64,000 nucleotides of DNA from Clostridiales bacterium Firm_16 (GTDB lineage: Bacteria > Bacillota > Clostridia > Saccharofermentanales > Saccharofermentanaceae), in the NCBI GenBank assembly GCA_001604185.1, contig LVAV01000110.1, forward strand, positions 62,001 through 126,000, read 5' to 3'. Of the stretch, positions 30,814 through 40,035 are shown piece by piece. The translations under genes and the position numbers were made by a program. The stretch's first letter is position 1. Every line of letters starts with the position of its first letter. The notes under the pieces were generated by a model. It worked only from the letters and a program-made list of their open reading frames with translations. It had not been told where the DNA came from and searched no databases.

Positions 30814-31665
30814 ATGAGAGTCATACTTGCCACCTCATGGTGGGCAGAGTTCTGGGACGCTTTCAAGGAAGAACTGGGAAGCGCTTTCGGAGGGAAAAAC
30901 ATCGGAGAAGAGATCCGTCACGGCATCATGCAGTGGAAGGGTTATTTCCAGCTCGGCGATGACAAGGTTCCGATCACGGATGCTATCATTGTCATGTGGA
31001 TCGCCATGCTGATCGGTATTCTGTTTTTCTGGTGGCTGGGAAGAAAGCGTGAGATGGTTCCGGGTGGCAGACAGTCCATCATGGAATCGCTCATCGGGAT
31101 TCTTTTCGGTGTGTGCAAAGACTACGGACTCAATGAAGAGCAGTCGGAGAAGGTCATTCCGATGGTCGGTACGATCGGTATCGTCCTGATCAGTTGTAAC
31201 GTGATCTCAATCTTTAAAGTACCGCCGCCGGCGAAGAATATTGCTTTCCCGTTTGCGTTGGGCATATTTGCGATCCTTTATGTAATCGTGATGTCGATCC
31301 GTTTTGTCGGATTCAAGGGATTTGCACGGGCATTTGTCGACCCGAAGCCCTTTATGCTTCCATTTAAGATCATTGACTTCTTCGTAAAGCCGGTTTCCTT
31401 GGCTTTGCGTCTTTTCGGTAACGTTTTCGGAGCATTTATCCTGATGGAGTTCCTGAGCATCATCGTTCCGGTCATTGTGCCGGGCGTGTTCAGTCTGTGG
31501 TTCGACCTGATGGATGGTATCCTGCAGGCTATCGTATTCTGCTATCTGACGATATCCTATGTCGGTGAAGTCGTCGAGAGTGCGCATGCCGTCGCGGAGA
31601 GAAAAGAAGAGAAGTTAAAAGAGAAAGAAGAAAAAGCTGCCGAGGCTGCAGCAAAAGCAGCCTGA
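30814..31665 (+). CDS. atpB: ATP synthase Fo subunit a
   Basis: 283 residues, multi-pass membrane protein forming the ion half-channels against the c-ring. The essential arginine is in SLALRLFGNVFGAFILMEF (about 195-213). A 50-residue N-terminal lead (SWWAEFWDAFKEELGSAF and on) precedes the first helix. The C-terminus has an unusual soluble tail of about 25 residues made almost only of Lys, Glu and Ala (ERKEEKLKEKEEKAAEAA), beyond the normal last helix. It starts the operon; no atpI or atpZ is upstream. Confidence 0.95.
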   Translation: MRVILATSWWAEFWDAFKEELGSAFGGKNIGEEIRHGIMQWKGYFQLGDDKVPITDAIIVMWIAMLIGILFFWWLGRKREMVPGGRQSIMESLIGILFGVCKDYGLNEEQSEKVIPMVGTIGIVLISCNVISIFKVPPPAKNIAFPFALGIFAILYVIVMSIRFVGFKGFARAFVDPKPFMLPFKIIDFFVKPVSLALRLFGNVFGAFILMEFLSIIVPVIVPGVFSLWFDLMDGILQAIVFCYLTISYVGEVVESAHAVAERKEEKLKEKEEKAAEAAAKAA

Positions 31666-31694: not shown

Positions 31695-31964
31695 ATGATG
31701 AATCTAACACGAGTTTTACTGGATGTTGCCGCTGCGGATCCGAAGGGTCTTGCCGGTTTCGGTGCCGGTCTTGCCATTGGTCTTGCCGCATTAGGAACCA
31801 CGATCGGTATCGGTCTTGCTGCAGGACGAGCTCTGGAAGGTGCTTCCCGTCAGCCGGAAATGTACAGTAAACTGCAGACTTTGCTGCTCATCTCCATCGT
31901 ATTCATGGAGTCCATCGCAATCTACGCGTTGGTAGTCAGCTTGTTGCTGATCTTTACTTTCTGA
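31695..31964 (+). CDS. atpE: ATP synthase Fo subunit c
   Basis: 89 residues, two helices joined by the polar loop GASRQPE. The ion-binding carboxylate is Glu in [11 protein letters not shown]. Na+-type rings of Ilyobacter and relatives need a Gln in helix 1 (GVGQGYAAG); the same position here is Ile (IGIGLAAG), which favours H+ although the Ser after Glu is kept. GGAGG precedes the ATG; an ATG three bases downstream is also possible. Confidence 0.95.
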
Positions 31965-31984: not shown

Positions 31985-32587
31985 ATGAATCTGCTTTCTA
32001 TTGCAACCATGAATAAGATTGCGATCGTAGCATTGGATGTCGTTGCGAATGCCGAGGAAGAAAGTTCACTGCTTTCCCCGGATCAGATGGCGCACTATGC
32101 GGTCACGGCGATATTTACGATCATCAATGTACTGATCGCGTATGTGATTTTGAAGCTGGTTCTTTTCAAACCCTTAATGAAGGTCATTAAGAAGAGAAAA
32201 GAAGCCATCGGCGCGCAGATCACCAATGCGGAAGAGCGTGAGAAGAGTGCCGGTGAGAAGTTGGACGAGGCCGTCCGTCGTGTGGATGCGTCCCATGAGG
32301 AAGCGATGCAGATCATTGCCGACGCCCGTTCCCAGGCAGAAAAACAATCCGAGACGATTATCGAAGCCGCCCGTCGTGAGGCACAGGAGATCCGTGACCG
32401 TGCGGAGGAAGATGCCAAGCGTACACGTAAGGCTATGCTGGAAGAAATGAAGGATGAAGTGGCAGATCTGGCTGTATCGATTGCCGGACATGTCGTTGGT
32501 ACCTGCAATGCATCCACGACCCAGGAAGAGATCCGGGAGAAGGTGGAGGCAGAATTGAAGTCGGCAGAGGTGAAGACCGGTGATTAA
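31985..32587 (+). CDS. atpF: ATP synthase subunit b
   Basis: 200 residues, longer than the usual 160-170 because of an N-terminal lead of about 35 residues before the membrane helix ([19 protein letters not shown]). The cytoplasmic part is a long Glu/Arg/Ala-rich coiled coil forming the peripheral stalk. The C-terminal end ([14 protein letters not shown]) is the usual b terminus and has no delta-type fusion. Its last eight bases overlap the next gene. GAGGTGA precedes the ATG. Confidence 0.93.
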
Positions 32588-34493
32588 TGAAAGTGGTTTT
32601 GAAGTTATCCGGATCGTCACGGCTTCCGATGAAATGCCACCGGAGAAGATCGCGCTGATCGCGCGTCGTTTCGCCGAGCATCTGCATATTGCCGGTTACA
32701 CCATCCAGCAGGAGACAGACCGTTCCTTGCTCGGTGGTTATGTGATCTATGCCCAGGGAACCAAGTACGATTACAGCTTCGCCGGCCAGTTGTCCCGTAT
32801 CGGACGACACCTGAAGACGGATCGAGATGATGCTGCTCCGGACTTCGACGATAAAGAGGATAAAGGCGCTGTGGCGGAGATCCACAGATCCCTGGCGGAA
32901 GCATTGAAGGACTTCGATGAGAGCCCGTCCATGCTTTTCGAGAATGACGAATTGTGGGAAGGCGAAGATAAAGCTCAGGAAGAGAAGCGCGAGAAGCTCC
33001 TCGATGACTTTGCCCAGGCTTCTCAGGTGGAGCAGGTCGGTCAGGTTATGTCCGTTTCTGACGGAGTTGCGATGGTCAGCGGCCTGGAAAACTGCGTAGC
33101 CAGTGAATTGATCATGTTCTCGGAGGCTTCTTACGGTATTGCCATGAACCTGGAGACCGACCGTGTCGGTGTTGTTCTTCTGGGCGAATGCAAGGATGTA
33201 GTAGAAGGTGTCATGTGCCATCGAACCGGCCGTACTGTTTCGGTGCCGGTAGGCCGTGGTCTTCTCGGACGTGTCGTAGACCCGTTGGGAAACCCGATCG
33301 ACGGCAAGGGTATCATCCGTTCTACAGATAAGAGACCAATCGAGTATCCGGCTCCTACGATTATTGAAAGATCCCCGATCTGCGAACCTTTGCAGACCGG
33401 TATTACTGCTATCGATGCCATGACGCCTATCGGACGTGGTCAGCGTGAGTTGATCATCGGTGACCGCCAGACCGGTAAGACAGCCATCGCTATCGATACG
33501 ATTATCAACCAGCGTGGCAAGAACGTACTGTGTGTATATGTTGCCATCGGTCAGAAGATGGCTAACATTGTTCAGGTGGCCAAGACTCTGGAACAGCATA
33601 ATGCTCTGGAATATACGGTAATTGTTGCTTCCAGTGCTTCTCAGCCAGCGGCCCTTCAGTACATCGCGCCATATGCAGGCTGCGCCATTGCCGAAGGTTT
33701 CATGTATGACGATCACGATGACGTCCTGATCGTATACGATGACCTTTCCAAGCATGCGCAGGCATATCGTGCTATCTCGTTACTGCTTCGTCGTCCGCCG
33801 GGACGTGAAGCGTATCCTGGAGATGTTTTCTATCTGCATTCCAGACTTCTGGAGCGTTCTGCGAAACTCAGCGACGCTCTGGGTGGCGGATCTTTGACGG
33901 CGTTGCCGATTATTGAGACTTTAAGCGGAGATATTTCTGCTTACATTCCGACTAACGTTATTTCGATCACAGACGGTCAGATCTATCTGGAATCCGAGTT
34001 GTTCTTCTCCGGTCAGAGACCGGCCATCAACGTGGGTCTTTCTGTATCCCGTGTAGGTGGTGCCGCTCAGACCAAGGCGATGAAGAAAGTGGCCGGACCA
34101 CTTCGTATCAGTCTTGCTCAGGCCCGTGAGATGGCGGCTTTCGCCCAGTTCGGTTCTGACCTTGATGTGAATACCCAGAAGCAGTTGAAACGTGGCGTCA
34201 TCCTGAACGAGATCCTCAAGCAGGAACAGTTCTCTGCGCTGCAGATGGATGAACAGGTCGTCATGCTGTATCTGGCAACCAACGAGAAGCTTACTTTCCT
34301 GGATAAGGAAGATGCGAAAGAATATGTTAATGAATTCCTGCAGAGATTAAGTGTCCTGCATCCGGATATCATGAAGAAGATCATGGATACCCGCGTGCTG
34401 GATGATGATGTCAAGAAAGAGATCGATGAGATCGAAGCAGAATACCATATGCTTTACGTAGCAGAACATAAGCAATATCAGCATGAGGCATAA
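32580..34493 (+). CDS. atpA: ATP synthase delta(C-domain)-alpha fusion
   Basis: 637 residues, about 135 longer than a normal alpha. Residues 1-75 match the C-terminal domain of delta (AtpH): [19 protein letters not shown], then [22 protein letters not shown] and LSRIGRHL, the family's D-x-S-L-x-G-G and D-x-S pattern. A charged linker (about 76-135, rich in Asp, Glu and Lys) leads into a complete alpha from about residue 140: [16 protein letters not shown], Walker [12 protein letters not shown], and [15 protein letters not shown] with the arginine that reaches the catalytic site. GTG start at 32580, with AGAGGTGA upstream, overlapping atpF by eight bases. No separate atpH exists between atpF and atpG, and the delta N-terminal six-helix domain is absent from the window. 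The sequence is continuous in one frame without a stop, so this is not two genes. Confidence 0.9.
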
Positions 34494-34498
34494 GGATC

Positions 34499-35431
34499 AT
34501 GGAGAGCCTGAACGACATTAAAAAGCGCATAAAGAGTGTTAACGACATTTCCCAGTTGACCCGCGCCATGCAGCTTGTCAGTGCAGCCAAGATGCGTAAG
34601 TCCAAGGTTCAGCATGAGATGGTCACCCCGTTCTTTACACTTTGTGCCGAGAGCATGATGGAAGTGTATAACAATGCAGGTGATATCGATAATCCTTACC
34701 TGACCATGCGTGAGAAGGTTCCGGGTGAGACCTGGAAGATCGGATACTTTATCCTTACCGGTGACCAGGGACTGGCGGGTGCGTATAACAATAATATCGT
34801 GAAGATCTCTGAAGAGCATATCCAGAAGAAGATCCTGGAGAATGCTAAGAAAAACATCCGCACGGAATATAAGCTATACGTATTCGGACAGATGGGCAGC
34901 GATAAGCTCTCCAGAGACGGATATCTGGTAGACCCGGAGTTCTCCTTCCCGATTTCGGAACCGACCTACTATCAGGCGAGAAATGTGGCCAATATTATCC
35001 GGGCCAAATACTTAAGCGGAGAGTTCGATCTGGTATATCTGATCTACACCAAGATGGAGTCGGCGGTCAGCATGAAGCCGATCATCAACCGTGTACTGCC
35101 GATCAACACTACTTCGCTTCAGATGACGATCAAAGAAGGGGTCGATGACGCAGGCCTTGCTAAAGAAGCAGAGGGCAGTCTGGATTATCATCCGAATGCC
35201 AGTGAGGTGTTCTCGTTCCTTATCGATACCTATCTGAACTCCGCACTGTACGGAGCCATGGTTGAGGCGTTTGCCTGTGAACAGACCGCGCGAATGACGG
35301 CGATGGATAATGCGAATAAGAATGCAGATGAAATGATGAAGAAACTGACTATGCAGAGTAACCGTGCACGTCAGGCCCGTATCACCAACGAGCTGAATGA
35401 GATCGTGAACGGTGCCAATCAGGTGGAATAG
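34499..35431 (+). CDS. atpG: ATP synthase gamma subunit
   Basis: 310 residues. N-terminal helix IKKRIKSVNDISQLTRAMQLVSAAKMRK and C-terminal helix EQTARMTAMDNANKNADEM form the rotor coiled coil; GDQGLAGAYNNNI is the conserved central motif. It turns inside the alpha-beta hexamer. AAGGA precedes the ATG, five bases after the alpha stop. Confidence 0.95.
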   Translation: MESLNDIKKRIKSVNDISQLTRAMQLVSAAKMRKSKVQHEMVTPFFTLCAESMMEVYNNAGDIDNPYLTMREKVPGETWKIGYFILTGDQGLAGAYNNNIVKISEEHIQKKILENAKKNIRTEYKLYVFGQMGSDKLSRDGYLVDPEFSFPISEPTYYQARNVANIIRAKYLSGEFDLVYLIYTKMESAVSMKPIINRVLPINTTSLQMTIKEGVDDAGLAKEAEGSLDYHPNASEVFSFLIDTYLNSALYGAMVEAFACEQTARMTAMDNANKNADEMMKKLTMQSNRARQARITNELNEIVNGANQVE

Positions 35432-36835
<1,404 letters not shown>

Positions 36836-36842
36836 GTAGAAC

Positions 36843-37295
36843 ATGGCAGCAGAGGAACAGAAAAAGAAGATGATGCTGGAGGTGGTCACACCGTATCAGG
36901 TCTTCTATGAAGGCCAGATCGAGAAGATCGTCCTTCCTGCTCTCGATGGAAGTCTGGGTATCCTTCCCGGACATTCTCCTCTGGTCGTGGCGATCACTCC
37001 GGGAATCGCTCGTTTCGAGGCGGATGGAGAGAGCCGCAGTTTCTCTTTGTCCGAAGGATTTGCAGAGATCGCGCATCATGTTGTAGTGATCGTAAGTAAC
37101 GCCGCAGAGTGGCCGGAACAGATCGATGAAGCCCGTGCCAATGCAGCTCTGGAACGTGCCAACGCGAAGTTGAATAATCCCGCAAATACAGATGAACAGC
37201 GTATTTATGCCCGCCATGCGATCCGTCGTGCCAAGACAAGACTAAAACTTGCACAGGAGCAGGGCAAGAAGAAAAATCCTCGTTTTATGGAATAA
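36843..37295 (+). CDS. atpC: ATP synthase epsilon subunit
   Basis: 150 residues, two domains. The beta-sandwich has GSLGILPGHSPLV, and the C-terminal helical hairpin contains IDEARA, matching the I/L-D-x-x-R-A ATP-binding motif of bacterial epsilon that governs inhibition. A basic tail (GKKKNPRF) ends the protein. It is the last gene of the operon; no clear hairpin terminator follows. Confidence 0.93.
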   Translation: MAAEEQKKKMMLEVVTPYQVFYEGQIEKIVLPALDGSLGILPGHSPLVVAITPGIARFEADGESRSFSLSEGFAEIAHHVVVIVSNAAEWPEQIDEARANAALERANAKLNNPANTDEQRIYARHAIRRAKTRLKLAQEQGKKKNPRFME

Positions 37296-37356: not shown

Positions 37357-37428
37357 CTGCGTATTGAGTTTGTGTTTTGACAATTGAAGAATACGGGGGG
37401 ATTTGAAGAAGGGATTAAGGTTTCTACT

Positions 37429-40035
37429 ATGAAGAAATTCAGACCTGGTTCTTTTCCTGGTCCGTCTCGTGTTATGGTAGTGATGTTACTGAGCTCTCTG
37501 ATTCTGCTCGGGACATCATATTTTTTTATTCAGGCACAAACTACGGCGAAAGAAGATGAACTATCTATCAGTGACTTTGCTGACGAAGATTTAATCGCCA
37601 GCTGGGAAAAAGGTGATGGGGAGTATATGCTCCCTGCAGATACCGGATCGAAAGTTACATTGCATGGTTTCGACGATCCGAATGATCCAATCTGCGATGA
37701 CTGCGGCCTTGTCCGCTTGCTGCAGATAGCTGATCTTGAGGCTCCGGTTACCGGATCTTCTCTTGATAAAGCCATCACGCTCTCTGCATCTAAAGGAGTT
37801 TCGAGCTCCGTTTCTTGGTCTCCAAGTGATTCTAAAGCCCAGGAGAATACCGCTTACACGGTAACAATCACATTTACACCAAAATCTGGCTATCATTTTG
37901 ATGCGAACACAACTGCAACGATCGACGGCGTTGCGGTTACTGCAACTCGCGTCAATTCTAGAATCACGGTTTCCAAGACTTTTGGAAAGACCGGACCTGC
38001 TCCGTCTGTTGTGACTTATGGTGACTGGGAATATGAACCGGCAACAGGAAAGATCACAAAGTACATCGGAACAAAGACAGAAGTGTCTGTTCCTACGAGA
38101 GTGAATGGAACGAAGATCACCGCAATCGGGGATCGTGCATTCTCAGGGAACACTACGATCACTTCCGTGACGATTCCGGGAGCAATTACTTCCGTCGGGG
38201 AGCGAGCGTTTGCCTACTGTACTGCTTTGCAGAAAGTCTCCTTCAATGATGGCTTGAAAGAACTTGGTAATTACGCGTTCGCTTCTTGCACGAGTCTTAA
38301 GGATGTTTCTTTCCCCGATTCGCTTACCAAGATTCCTTTCGCCGCTTTCTGGAAGTGCAGCGCGCTTAAGGACGTGACTTTCGGAAAGAACATCCAGACT
38401 CTTGCGGCAAGTTCCTTTGTGGAGTGCGGTTTGACGCATGTCTGCATGCCGAGTGATGTATTCGAAGCCGGCGTTAAGTCCGGTGCCTTTGATTCGAAAG
38501 TTACACTCCATCTTTATGATGATGATTCTGATCCGGCCTGCGATGACTGTGGTTATATCCGCTTCTTGAATGTGGCTGATCTGGATGCACCATCTACCGG
38601 AAAGCAGATGGATAAGTCTTTCTCCTTTGCGGCATCGAGCGTTGCCGGATCGTCCATTACCTGGTCACCTGCAGATCGTACTGCTAAGCCATCAACAGTT
38701 TATACAGTAACGATCACGTTCTCATCTAACTATGGTTATCATTTCGATGAGAAGACCACGGCCTCTATCAACGGAACATCTGTAGCAACAGAACTGGTAT
38801 CGGAAAGAAAGATCGTAGTGACTAAGACATATCCGTCTACTGCGGCTGCAACTCCGACGCCGACACCGACAAAGAAGGCAACACCTTCTCCGAAGAATAC
38901 ACCGTCTCCGAGACCGACCAAGGGTGCCAATACTCCGGCTCCGACAGTCAGTCCGACACCGACGAGAGTCCCGGATATTCCGATCGTTTCACCGACTGTT
39001 TCGCCGACTCCGACGAATACTCCGAGACCGACGCGTTCTCCGGTTCTCCCGACGATCACGCCGACCAATACACCTACACCGACTAATACACCTAAGCCGA
39101 CAAATACTCCGGTACCGACAGTAAGTCCGACACCTACAGCAACACCTGTACCGGGTAAGCCGACCCCGACTCTCGCTCCGGGTCAGCCTTCTCCGACACC
39201 GGCACCCGGTCAGCCGACGCCGACCGTAACTCCTGCTCCGGAACAACCGACACCGACTCCGGATCCGGAAGAAGAGTGGCCGACATTCGAAGATTTTGTT
39301 GAGCGTCTTTATACGATCGCACTGAATCGTGCATCTGAACCGGAAGGTAAGGAATTCTGGGTGAAGCAGGTAGTAGAAGAAGGATTTACCGGTGCAGATT
39401 GTGCCCGTTACTTCCTGCTGGAAGCTCCGGAATTCATGAACCGCGGCCTCAGTGATGATGCTTTCGTTGAAACTCTTTATATGACTTTCTTCGATCGCGA
39501 ATCCGAGCCGGAAGGAAAGGCCTTCTATCTTAAAGAACTGAAGAATGGTACACCTCGTACTAAGGTAGTGGAGTACTTCATTGAGTCAACCGAGTGGTGC
39601 AATGTCTGCGCTACCTACGGTGTTAAGTCCGGATCCTTGTATTACAAGGCAACGATTCCTTCACGGAATGCGTTGAAATTCGCAGAGCGCCTGTACACAT
39701 GCTGTCTGGGACGTGAAGCGGAGGAGGAAGGTCTGCAGTTCTGGGCACTCCGTCTGACCAATCTGGAGGAGTCCGGTTACAGTGCAGCCAAGGAGTTCTT
39801 CGAGAGTGATGAATTCGAAGGCTTCCACACGACCAATGAGGAATTCCTGGAACGTCTGTATCTCACATTCATGGATCGTGAATCAGACGAAGAGGGTATC
39901 AAATTCTGGCTGGAGCGCATGAAGGATGGTGAAAGCCGCAGTGGAGTCATCTATGACTTTGCCGATTCTCCTGAATTCCTGCAGATCTGCCGTTCCTACG
40001 GTATCGATACCGGTCTGGAAAAAGTAGAGGAATGA
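37429..40035 (+). CDS. BspA-like LRR/DUF4214 exported surface protein
   Basis: 868 residues from the ATG at 37429 (AAGG eight bases ahead); the in-frame TTG at 37384 is rejected. A membrane-anchoring or signal helix covers about 14-37 (VMVVMLLSSLILLGTSYFFI). Two copies of a roughly 110-residue module (DDPNDPICDDCG... and DDDSDPACDDCG..., each ending in TVTITF...GYHFD) flank a BspA-type leucine-rich region (GDRAFSGNTTITSVTIPG, ...YAFASCTSLKDVSFPDSL). Then a Thr/Pro linker (about 490-615) and four DUF4214-type units (FVERLY, FVETLY, FAERLY, FLERLY). The tail closely matches the protein ending at 2375. First of three exported proteins in a row; adhesion or polysaccharide binding is a guess from the domains. 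Confidence 0.85.
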   Translation: MKKFRPGSFPGPSRVMVVMLLSSLILLGTSYFFIQAQTTAKEDELSISDFADEDLIASWEKGDGEYMLPADTGSKVTLHGFDDPNDPICDDCGLVRLLQIADLEAPVTGSSLDKAITLSASKGVSSSVSWSPSDSKAQENTAYTVTITFTPKSGYHFDANTTATIDGVAVTATRVNSRITVSKTFGKTGPAPSVVTYGDWEYEPATGKITKYIGTKTEVSVPTRVNGTKITAIGDRAFSGNTTITSVTIPGAITSVGERAFAYCTALQKVSFNDGLKELGNYAFASCTSLKDVSFPDSLTKIPFAAFWKCSALKDVTFGKNIQTLAASSFVECGLTHVCMPSDVFEAGVKSGAFDSKVTLHLYDDDSDPACDDCGYIRFLNVADLDAPSTGKQMDKSFSFAASSVAGSSITWSPADRTAKPSTVYTVTITFSSNYGYHFDEKTTASINGTSVATELVSERKIVVTKTYPSTAAATPTPTPTKKATPSPKNTPSPRPTKGANTPAPTVSPTPTRVPDIPIVSPTVSPTPTNTPRPTRSPVLPTITPTNTPTPTNTPKPTNTPVPTVSPTPTATPVPGKPTPTLAPGQPSPTPAPGQPTPTVTPAPEQPTPTPDPEEEWPTFEDFVERLYTIALNRASEPEGKEFWVKQVVEEGFTGADCARYFLLEAPEFMNRGLSDDAFVETLYMTFFDRESEPEGKAFYLKELKNGTPRTKVVEYFIESTEWCNVCATYGVKSGSLYYKATIPSRNALKFAERLYTCCLGREAEEEGLQFWALRLTNLEESGYSAAKEFFESDEFEGFHTTNEEFLERLYLTFMDRESDEEGIKFWLERMKDGESRSGVIYDFADSPEFLQICRSYGIDTGLEKVEE

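Follow-up and report, generated by a model that had tools for sequence, protein, structure and literature searches.

The ATP synthase operon and its fusion gene

The 64,000-nucleotide stretch of Clostridiales bacterium Firm_16 analysed here (the window) carries the operon of an F-type ATP synthase, with its genes ordered a-c-b-(delta-alpha)-gamma-beta-epsilon. The place where atpH belongs is occupied by the ORF 32580-34493, one uninterrupted frame of 637 aa with a GTG start, whose 5' end overlaps the stop of atpF by 8 bases. Its product consists of the C-terminal domain (CTD) of delta/OSCP followed in frame by a complete F-type alpha, with about 60 residues between the two. The features of the operon are:

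30814..31665, + strand: atpB, subunit a, 283 aa (PF00119; single copy found in the genome)
31695..31964, + strand: atpE, subunit c, 89 aa (PF00137; no Gln/Glu at the helix-1 ion-site position)
31985..32587, + strand: atpF, subunit b, 200 aa, separate and unfused (PF00430; single copy found in the genome)
32580..32819, + strand: delta/OSCP CTD, fusion residues 1-80 (PF00213; predicted fold and Foldseek; colinear with 9jc1_I)
32820..33026, + strand: linker, fusion residues 81-149 (predicted helices 105-119, extra, and 131-149)
33027..34493, + strand: F-type alpha core, fusion residues 150-637 and stop (TIGR00962; Pfam N, nucleotide-binding and C domains)
34499..35431, + strand: atpG, subunit gamma, 310 aa (TIGR01146)
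35444..36835, + strand: atpD, subunit beta, 463 aa (TIGR01039)
36843..37295, + strand: atpC, subunit epsilon, 150 aa (TIGR01216)

The Pfam profile for OSCP (PF00213) matches residues 12-78 of the fusion protein with 24.7 bits for the whole protein and 30.6 bits for its first 87 aa (cut-off 22.3). As the match is confined to profile positions 106-172, only the C-terminal half of delta is present; the N-terminal domain (NTD, positions 1-105) has no match anywhere in the fusion protein. The alpha part is matched by TIGR00962 (atpA) over residues 139-623 with 731 bits against a cut-off of 484.45. AlphaFold2 modelled residues 1-163 with pLDDT block means of 89-96 for residues 11-80, and the predicted delta part has the element order strand, helix, three strands, helix. 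All 23 Foldseek matches at E ≤ 0.001 lie in ATP synthase entries; chains named delta or OSCP, 6n2y_I and 6rd4_P, are among the matches, and the engineered fusion 9jc1_I follows at rank 32 (E 0.006). The full-length AlphaFold model has a mean pLDDT of 70.7, too weak for claims about domain contacts. The profile, fold and Foldseek results thus bear out the initial annotation, which had taken the N-terminus for the delta CTD and the delta NTD for lost. Its view that covalent linkage replaces the usual binding of delta to alpha is likewise supported, with the CTD in frame with a complete alpha and the NTD absent. The gene product is almost certainly a covalent dock for the peripheral stalk on alpha.

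The genome assembly (3.72 Mb in 117 contigs, 97.6% complete, 5.4% contamination) was searched for further subunits. An OSCP profile search up to E 10 gave a single match, the fusion, and no second delta or atpH across the draft assembly, in agreement with the earlier statement that a separate atpH is missing. There is one gene for b (E up to 1e-4) and one for a (E up to 1e-3), both ordinary, with no sign of a raised dose of either. Six alpha/beta-type matches were found. Two are the alpha and beta of the fusion operon, two are the V/A-type A and B subunits on contig C92 (L226 and L227; TIGR01043 family with 921 bits, NF003235 with 794 bits), and the remaining two are weaker matches. The genome thus encodes a V/A-type ATPase as well. 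After atpC, at window positions 37384-40035, lies a gene for an 883-aa protein, probably surface-exposed, that contains a region of BspA-type leucine-rich repeats (LRR_5), stretches rich in P and T, and four matches to DUF4214.

Conservation and selection in the family

The OSCP profile search covered 115 genomes of the window's family. A CTD-only match was found in 107 of them, with a long frame of 631-670 aa in 102 and a shorter one (219-457 aa) in 5, where it is probably cut by a contig end. The remaining eight comprise four genomes without an OSCP match, three with a complete delta only, and G058, which has a complete delta and a weak, indistinct second match. In all 23 family loci that were read the frame consists of delta plus alpha. 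The two nearest named relatives (87% and 84% identical) come from rumen 'Clostridia bacterium' assemblies.

Substitution rates were compared in the 21 pairs among seven genes, the window's own and those of the six relatives nearest to it. The median dN/dS was 0.070 for the delta part (19/21 pairs with finite dS), 0.057 for the alpha part (21/21) and 0.162 for the linker (11/21). Judged by these ratios, the delta part is under purifying selection about as strong as that on alpha.

An assembly or sequencing artefact, or a chance resemblance to delta, might be suspected from the whole-protein OSCP score, which lies just above the cut-off, and from the single-sequence PDB search with the N-terminus, which gave E 0.22 or worse, although its matches are delta/OSCP chains. 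Since the long frame recurs in 102/115 family genomes, a merging of two genes by sequencing error is excluded, and the fusion is real, as the initial annotation had it. The fusion is also found in single-contig genomes of other lineages (G164 and G585), and purifying selection, the fold match and the operon place likewise speak against an artefact, which we regard as refuted.

Occurrence outside the family

Within the window's order, 188 genomes were searched for OSCP. The fusion frame was present in 7/12 genomes of family f3 and 18/23 of family f4, and none was seen in 38 genomes of f2, where three weak matches were not counted in; these denominators rest partly on genome numbering and include 21 inferred match-less genomes. 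The fusion is thus nearly fixed in the window's family (f1) and present in two sister families. Outside the order only genomes with a weak best OSCP match were followed, and the counts are therefore lower bounds: at least 18 genomes from 13 further family codes in a class sample of 391, and at least 10 genomes from 6 further family codes in a phylum sample of 398. The delta and alpha profiles scored in one ORF for 27 of these 28 fusions; the other (L206), whose frame is cut by a contig end, was identified by eye, and the frame of L185 is truncated too. The fusion is further present in a Mogibacterium assembly (L122). Counting f1, f3 and f4, the fusion occurs in at least 22 family codes.

A second ATP synthase in one genus

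A complete delta is also present in 53 of the 115 family genomes, all in genus g5 (85 genomes). Six such loci (L250-L255) were read by eye, and each has the full run a-c-b-delta-alpha-gamma-beta-epsilon. Pfam typing of one of them showed a complete operon whose epsilon has no match to the C-terminal helical domain. The c-subunits of these six operons carry a Glu at the helix-1 site together with E-T-T in helix 2, which we take to be a two-carboxylate Na+ signature. Gln or Glu at the helix-1 site was found in 0/26 scored rows of the window's clade (1/27 unscored). From these residues, cells of this kind seem to have two enzymes side by side, a canonical one, perhaps of Na+ type, and a fused one, probably of H+ type. 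Over all rows, Gln/Glu occurs at this site in 2/54 scored NTD-less rows against 18/42 canonical rows (3 and 11 unscored, respectively). Ion specificity was considered as a correlate of NTD loss and rejected, as there was no association over six independent pairs on the tree.

Related states of delta

Six loci have a free delta CTD of 77-94 aa, encoded by a separate gene ahead of alpha. The alpha is of ordinary length in five of them (L171, L176, L177, L178 and L219) and of 546 aa in the sixth (L133). Three such free CTDs, if functional, might bind to each F1 without fusion. Deltas with part of the NTD also occur (L172-L175 among others). In six genomes of family f20 (L158-L161, L164 and L165) a delta lacking approximately the first 38 profile positions is fused to alpha in a protein of 667 aa, which might be an intermediate. 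The MAG UBA3932 (L084:5359-7434, the same genome as L152) has an in-frame fusion of alpha with a complete delta (691 aa); this is one genome only, and a stop codon may have been lost in its assembly.

In two further genomes a CTD-like match without the NTD lies at the C-terminus of a b of 271-272 aa, scoring 23.7 bits in L220 (G903) and 19.8 bits, below the Pfam cut-off of 22.3, in L221 (G745).

Delta proteins with two tandem C-terminal domains were seen in L145 (G119), L146 (G130) and L205 (G608) and, by profile only, in L243 (G432) and L244 (G545). Short delta frames of 104-127 aa by first start, with a match to the N-terminal half of the profile only, occur in L209, L210, L213, L214 and L216 (family f135, genus g372); by profile match these are the mirror image of the present finding.

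Phylogeny of the alpha core

A maximum-likelihood tree was built from the alpha core with the delta part left out, using 80 rows chosen from 119; the other 39 were dropped by hand for a shorter run, with far rows removed. On this tree the CTD-alpha state requires 8 changes (7-8 over the bootstrap trees), and well supported branches make 6 of these unavoidable; a quick tree of all 119 rows gave the same 8 and 6. The state has thus changed about 6-8 times on the alpha tree. A single origin of the fusion was rejected, as the CTD-alpha state formed one group in 0% of 200 bootstrap trees. The counts do not separate gain from loss, and most changes are read as gains because a loss would require either that the NTD was regained or that the operon was transferred.

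The window's clade (f1, f3 and f4) forms one group with support of 100/100 in the 80-row tree and of 100 in the quick tree (27 rows). Another fusion clade, L122 and nine others (99/98), spans eight family codes and includes L191 of the window's order, which suggests transfer between families. L191 comes from the single-contig genome G164, and its fusion alpha groups with this Mogibacterium-type clade and not with its own order; its operon was, by this placement, likely acquired by transfer. Five of the free-CTD rows group with four fusions (98/90) in the 80-row tree, and loss of the NTD may therefore precede fusion. The sixth, L133, is outside the 80-row tree and falls elsewhere in the quick tree.

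The linker

Between the matched delta and alpha parts there are 61 residues in the window's protein and 19 in 9jc1_I by sequence comparison. The extra linker helix at residues 105-119 is predicted with lower pLDDT (61-76 by block), and its Phe112 and Glu114 are invariant in 21 aligned family sequences. The second predicted helix (131-149) lies near the site of the canonical alpha N-terminal helix. A profile of that helix found its best place in the normal register (-22) in 15/22 fusions outside the window's clade and was not significant on the window's protein alone (p 0.29). The N-terminal extensions of fusions from other lineages are mostly 102-130 residues long, compared with 150 in the window. 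Our guess is that the three extra linker helices might fill the central cavity vacated by the delta NTD.

In 21/23 distinct family loci the fusion frame has GTG or TTG as its furthest upstream start, a weak start that contrasts with the need for alpha in three copies. It may be inherited from atpH.

Comparison with known systems

The closest counterpart is the engineered Bacillus PS3 deltaDeltaN-alpha FoF1 (PDB 9jc1), in which the delta NTD is likewise gone, the CTD sits on the N-terminus of alpha, and there is no separate delta. Its chain 9jc1_I is colinear with the window's fusion: the delta part aligns 19-78 to 14-73 with 5.0 bits, weak by sequence, and the alpha part 140-618 to 93-572 with 587 bits. 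Apart from the shorter linker, the engineered enzyme differs in being without the epsilon C-terminal domain, which the window's epsilon retains (PF00401), and in that its stalk number is known.

Canonical bacterial F-type ATP synthases, including the second one of g5, have the remaining subunits in common with the window's operon and are likewise arranged as a-c-b-(delta)-alpha-gamma-beta-epsilon, but their two-domain delta is a separate gene (about 176 aa). In the mycobacterial b-delta fusion (NF009961; PDB 7nkd and others, found among the Foldseek matches) delta is also fused to a neighbouring subunit, and it is complete; it sits on b, whereas the b of the window is separate and without an OSCP match. 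The b-delta proteins of L220 and L221, unlike the mycobacterial fusion, carry the CTD only. Delta/b fusions have been described in Gordonia and some mycobacteria (PMC5709465), and among the 12 of 22 matches listed for that paper no delta-alpha protein fusion is named.

The initial annotation was mistaken in holding the delta-alpha fusion to be undescribed. This kind of fusion is already in print, as the engineered form and as named natural entries, in Ueno et al. (2025; PMC12229609). The natural fusions without the delta NTD given there (an Acidaminococcus fermentans operon; UniProt G4Q3K6 and A0A1I2C5T3) are like the window's gene by that paper's description. A literature search, with most subscription papers and preprints outside its scope, gave only Ueno et al. 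when a fuller account of natural delta-alpha fusions was sought, and yielded neither a structure nor a stoichiometry for any natural fusion enzyme. Nor did we find a literature account that covers this lineage, the spread over at least 22 family codes, the form with the long linker, repeated changes on a tree, or an NTD-less delta that is free or fused to b. New here are the near-fixation in the family, the two sister families, the long two-helix linker, the spread over at least 22 family codes, the 6-8 or so state changes, the relatives whose delta CTD is free, partial or fused to b, and the complete delta besides the fusion in 53 family genomes.

How many stalks?

Ueno et al. (2025; PMC12229609) traced the number of peripheral stalks to the delta NTD. 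They reasoned that this domain, placed at the pseudo-three-fold axis, limits the enzyme to a single stalk, and stated that every ATP synthase so far has one a-subunit. When the NTD of the Bacillus PS3 enzyme was deleted and the CTD fused to alpha, 0, 1, 2 and 3 stalks were seen in 15, 51, 26 and 8% of particles, with an a-subunit at every stalk and an H+/ATP ratio of 5.8. The authors blamed loss during preparation for the 66% of particles with no or one stalk, and they left natural multi-stalk enzymes to experimental verification (PMC12229609).

By analogy, we read the locus as encoding a putative natural multi-stalk-capable synthase. Delta no longer exists there as a single subunit: its NTD, which lies on the F1 three-fold axis in known enzymes, is lost and its CTD, the gripper of the b dimer, is built into alpha. 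Three docks per F1 follow from the alpha3beta3 stoichiometry. As in the engineered equivalent, two or more b dimers could then attach to one F1, each bringing an a-subunit. Ions per turn would equal the c-ring size times the number of a-subunits, and therefore ATP synthesis might be possible at a lower gradient. In our estimate the probability is roughly 55% that a substantial share of the native enzyme population has more than one stalk. Somewhat more tentatively, the ion/ATP ratio could evolve via stator number as well as c-ring size, some cells adding a canonical one-stalk F-ATPase.

Several observations weigh against multiple stalks: the engineered enzyme had no or one stalk in most particles (PMC12229609), a and b are single ordinary genes, and NTD loss is not associated with c-subunit ion type once kinship is considered. 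The fusion might instead simply substitute for the lost NTD contacts, as the initial annotation supposed, so that of the three delta domains only one would hold a b dimer, with a single a bound, either with a and b limiting or with the linker helices filling the F1 centre and breaking its symmetry. The single a and b genes are consistent with this arrangement, and one stalk was the commonest class even in the engineered enzyme (PMC12229609). The extra conserved helix in the 61-residue linker of the window's clade is unlike the 19-residue engineered linker and could occupy the central cavity. However, fusions of other lineages have shorter N-terminal extensions, and removal of the NTD together with fusion sufficed for two and three stalks with b and a unchanged (PMC12229609). 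The phrase 'three delta domains for one stalk' presumes a single stalk, where the engineered equivalent showed from none to three. We consider a one-stalk enzyme a serious rival, yet clearly the less probable of the two.

A mixture of fused and unfused alphas, arising from an internal start in the linker or from proteolysis and leaving about one dock per F1, would also undercut multiple stalks. The window's linker has two in-frame starts, an ATG at codon 118 whose 4-of-6 ribosome-binding match equals that of the real GTG start, and a GTG at codon 98 with a 5-of-6 match. The ATG near codon 118 recurs in 7 distinct close relatives, the window included, and some in-frame linker ATG is found in 48/69 fusion rows (a few of them duplicates). 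With its ATG at codon 118, the window's gene may yield some unfused alpha. Yet a linker ATG with a match of 5-of-6 or better occurs in only 3/69 rows, and the linker is still under constraint by its dN/dS. As there is no linker ATG in several g5 fusions (L042, L043, L044, L047 and L048), an internal start is not conserved in the family and was rejected as a general explanation. Mixed alphas are accordingly quite improbable.

Significance

A lineage with the altered architecture in 102 of 115 genomes makes the multi-stalk question directly testable, and the canonical F-ATPase (six loci read, of the 53 genomes that have a complete delta too) might act as a control within the same cells. If native enzymes do carry several stalks, evolution would have a second way of reaching a high ion/ATP ratio, and this would help to explain how gut anaerobes make ATP at low gradients.
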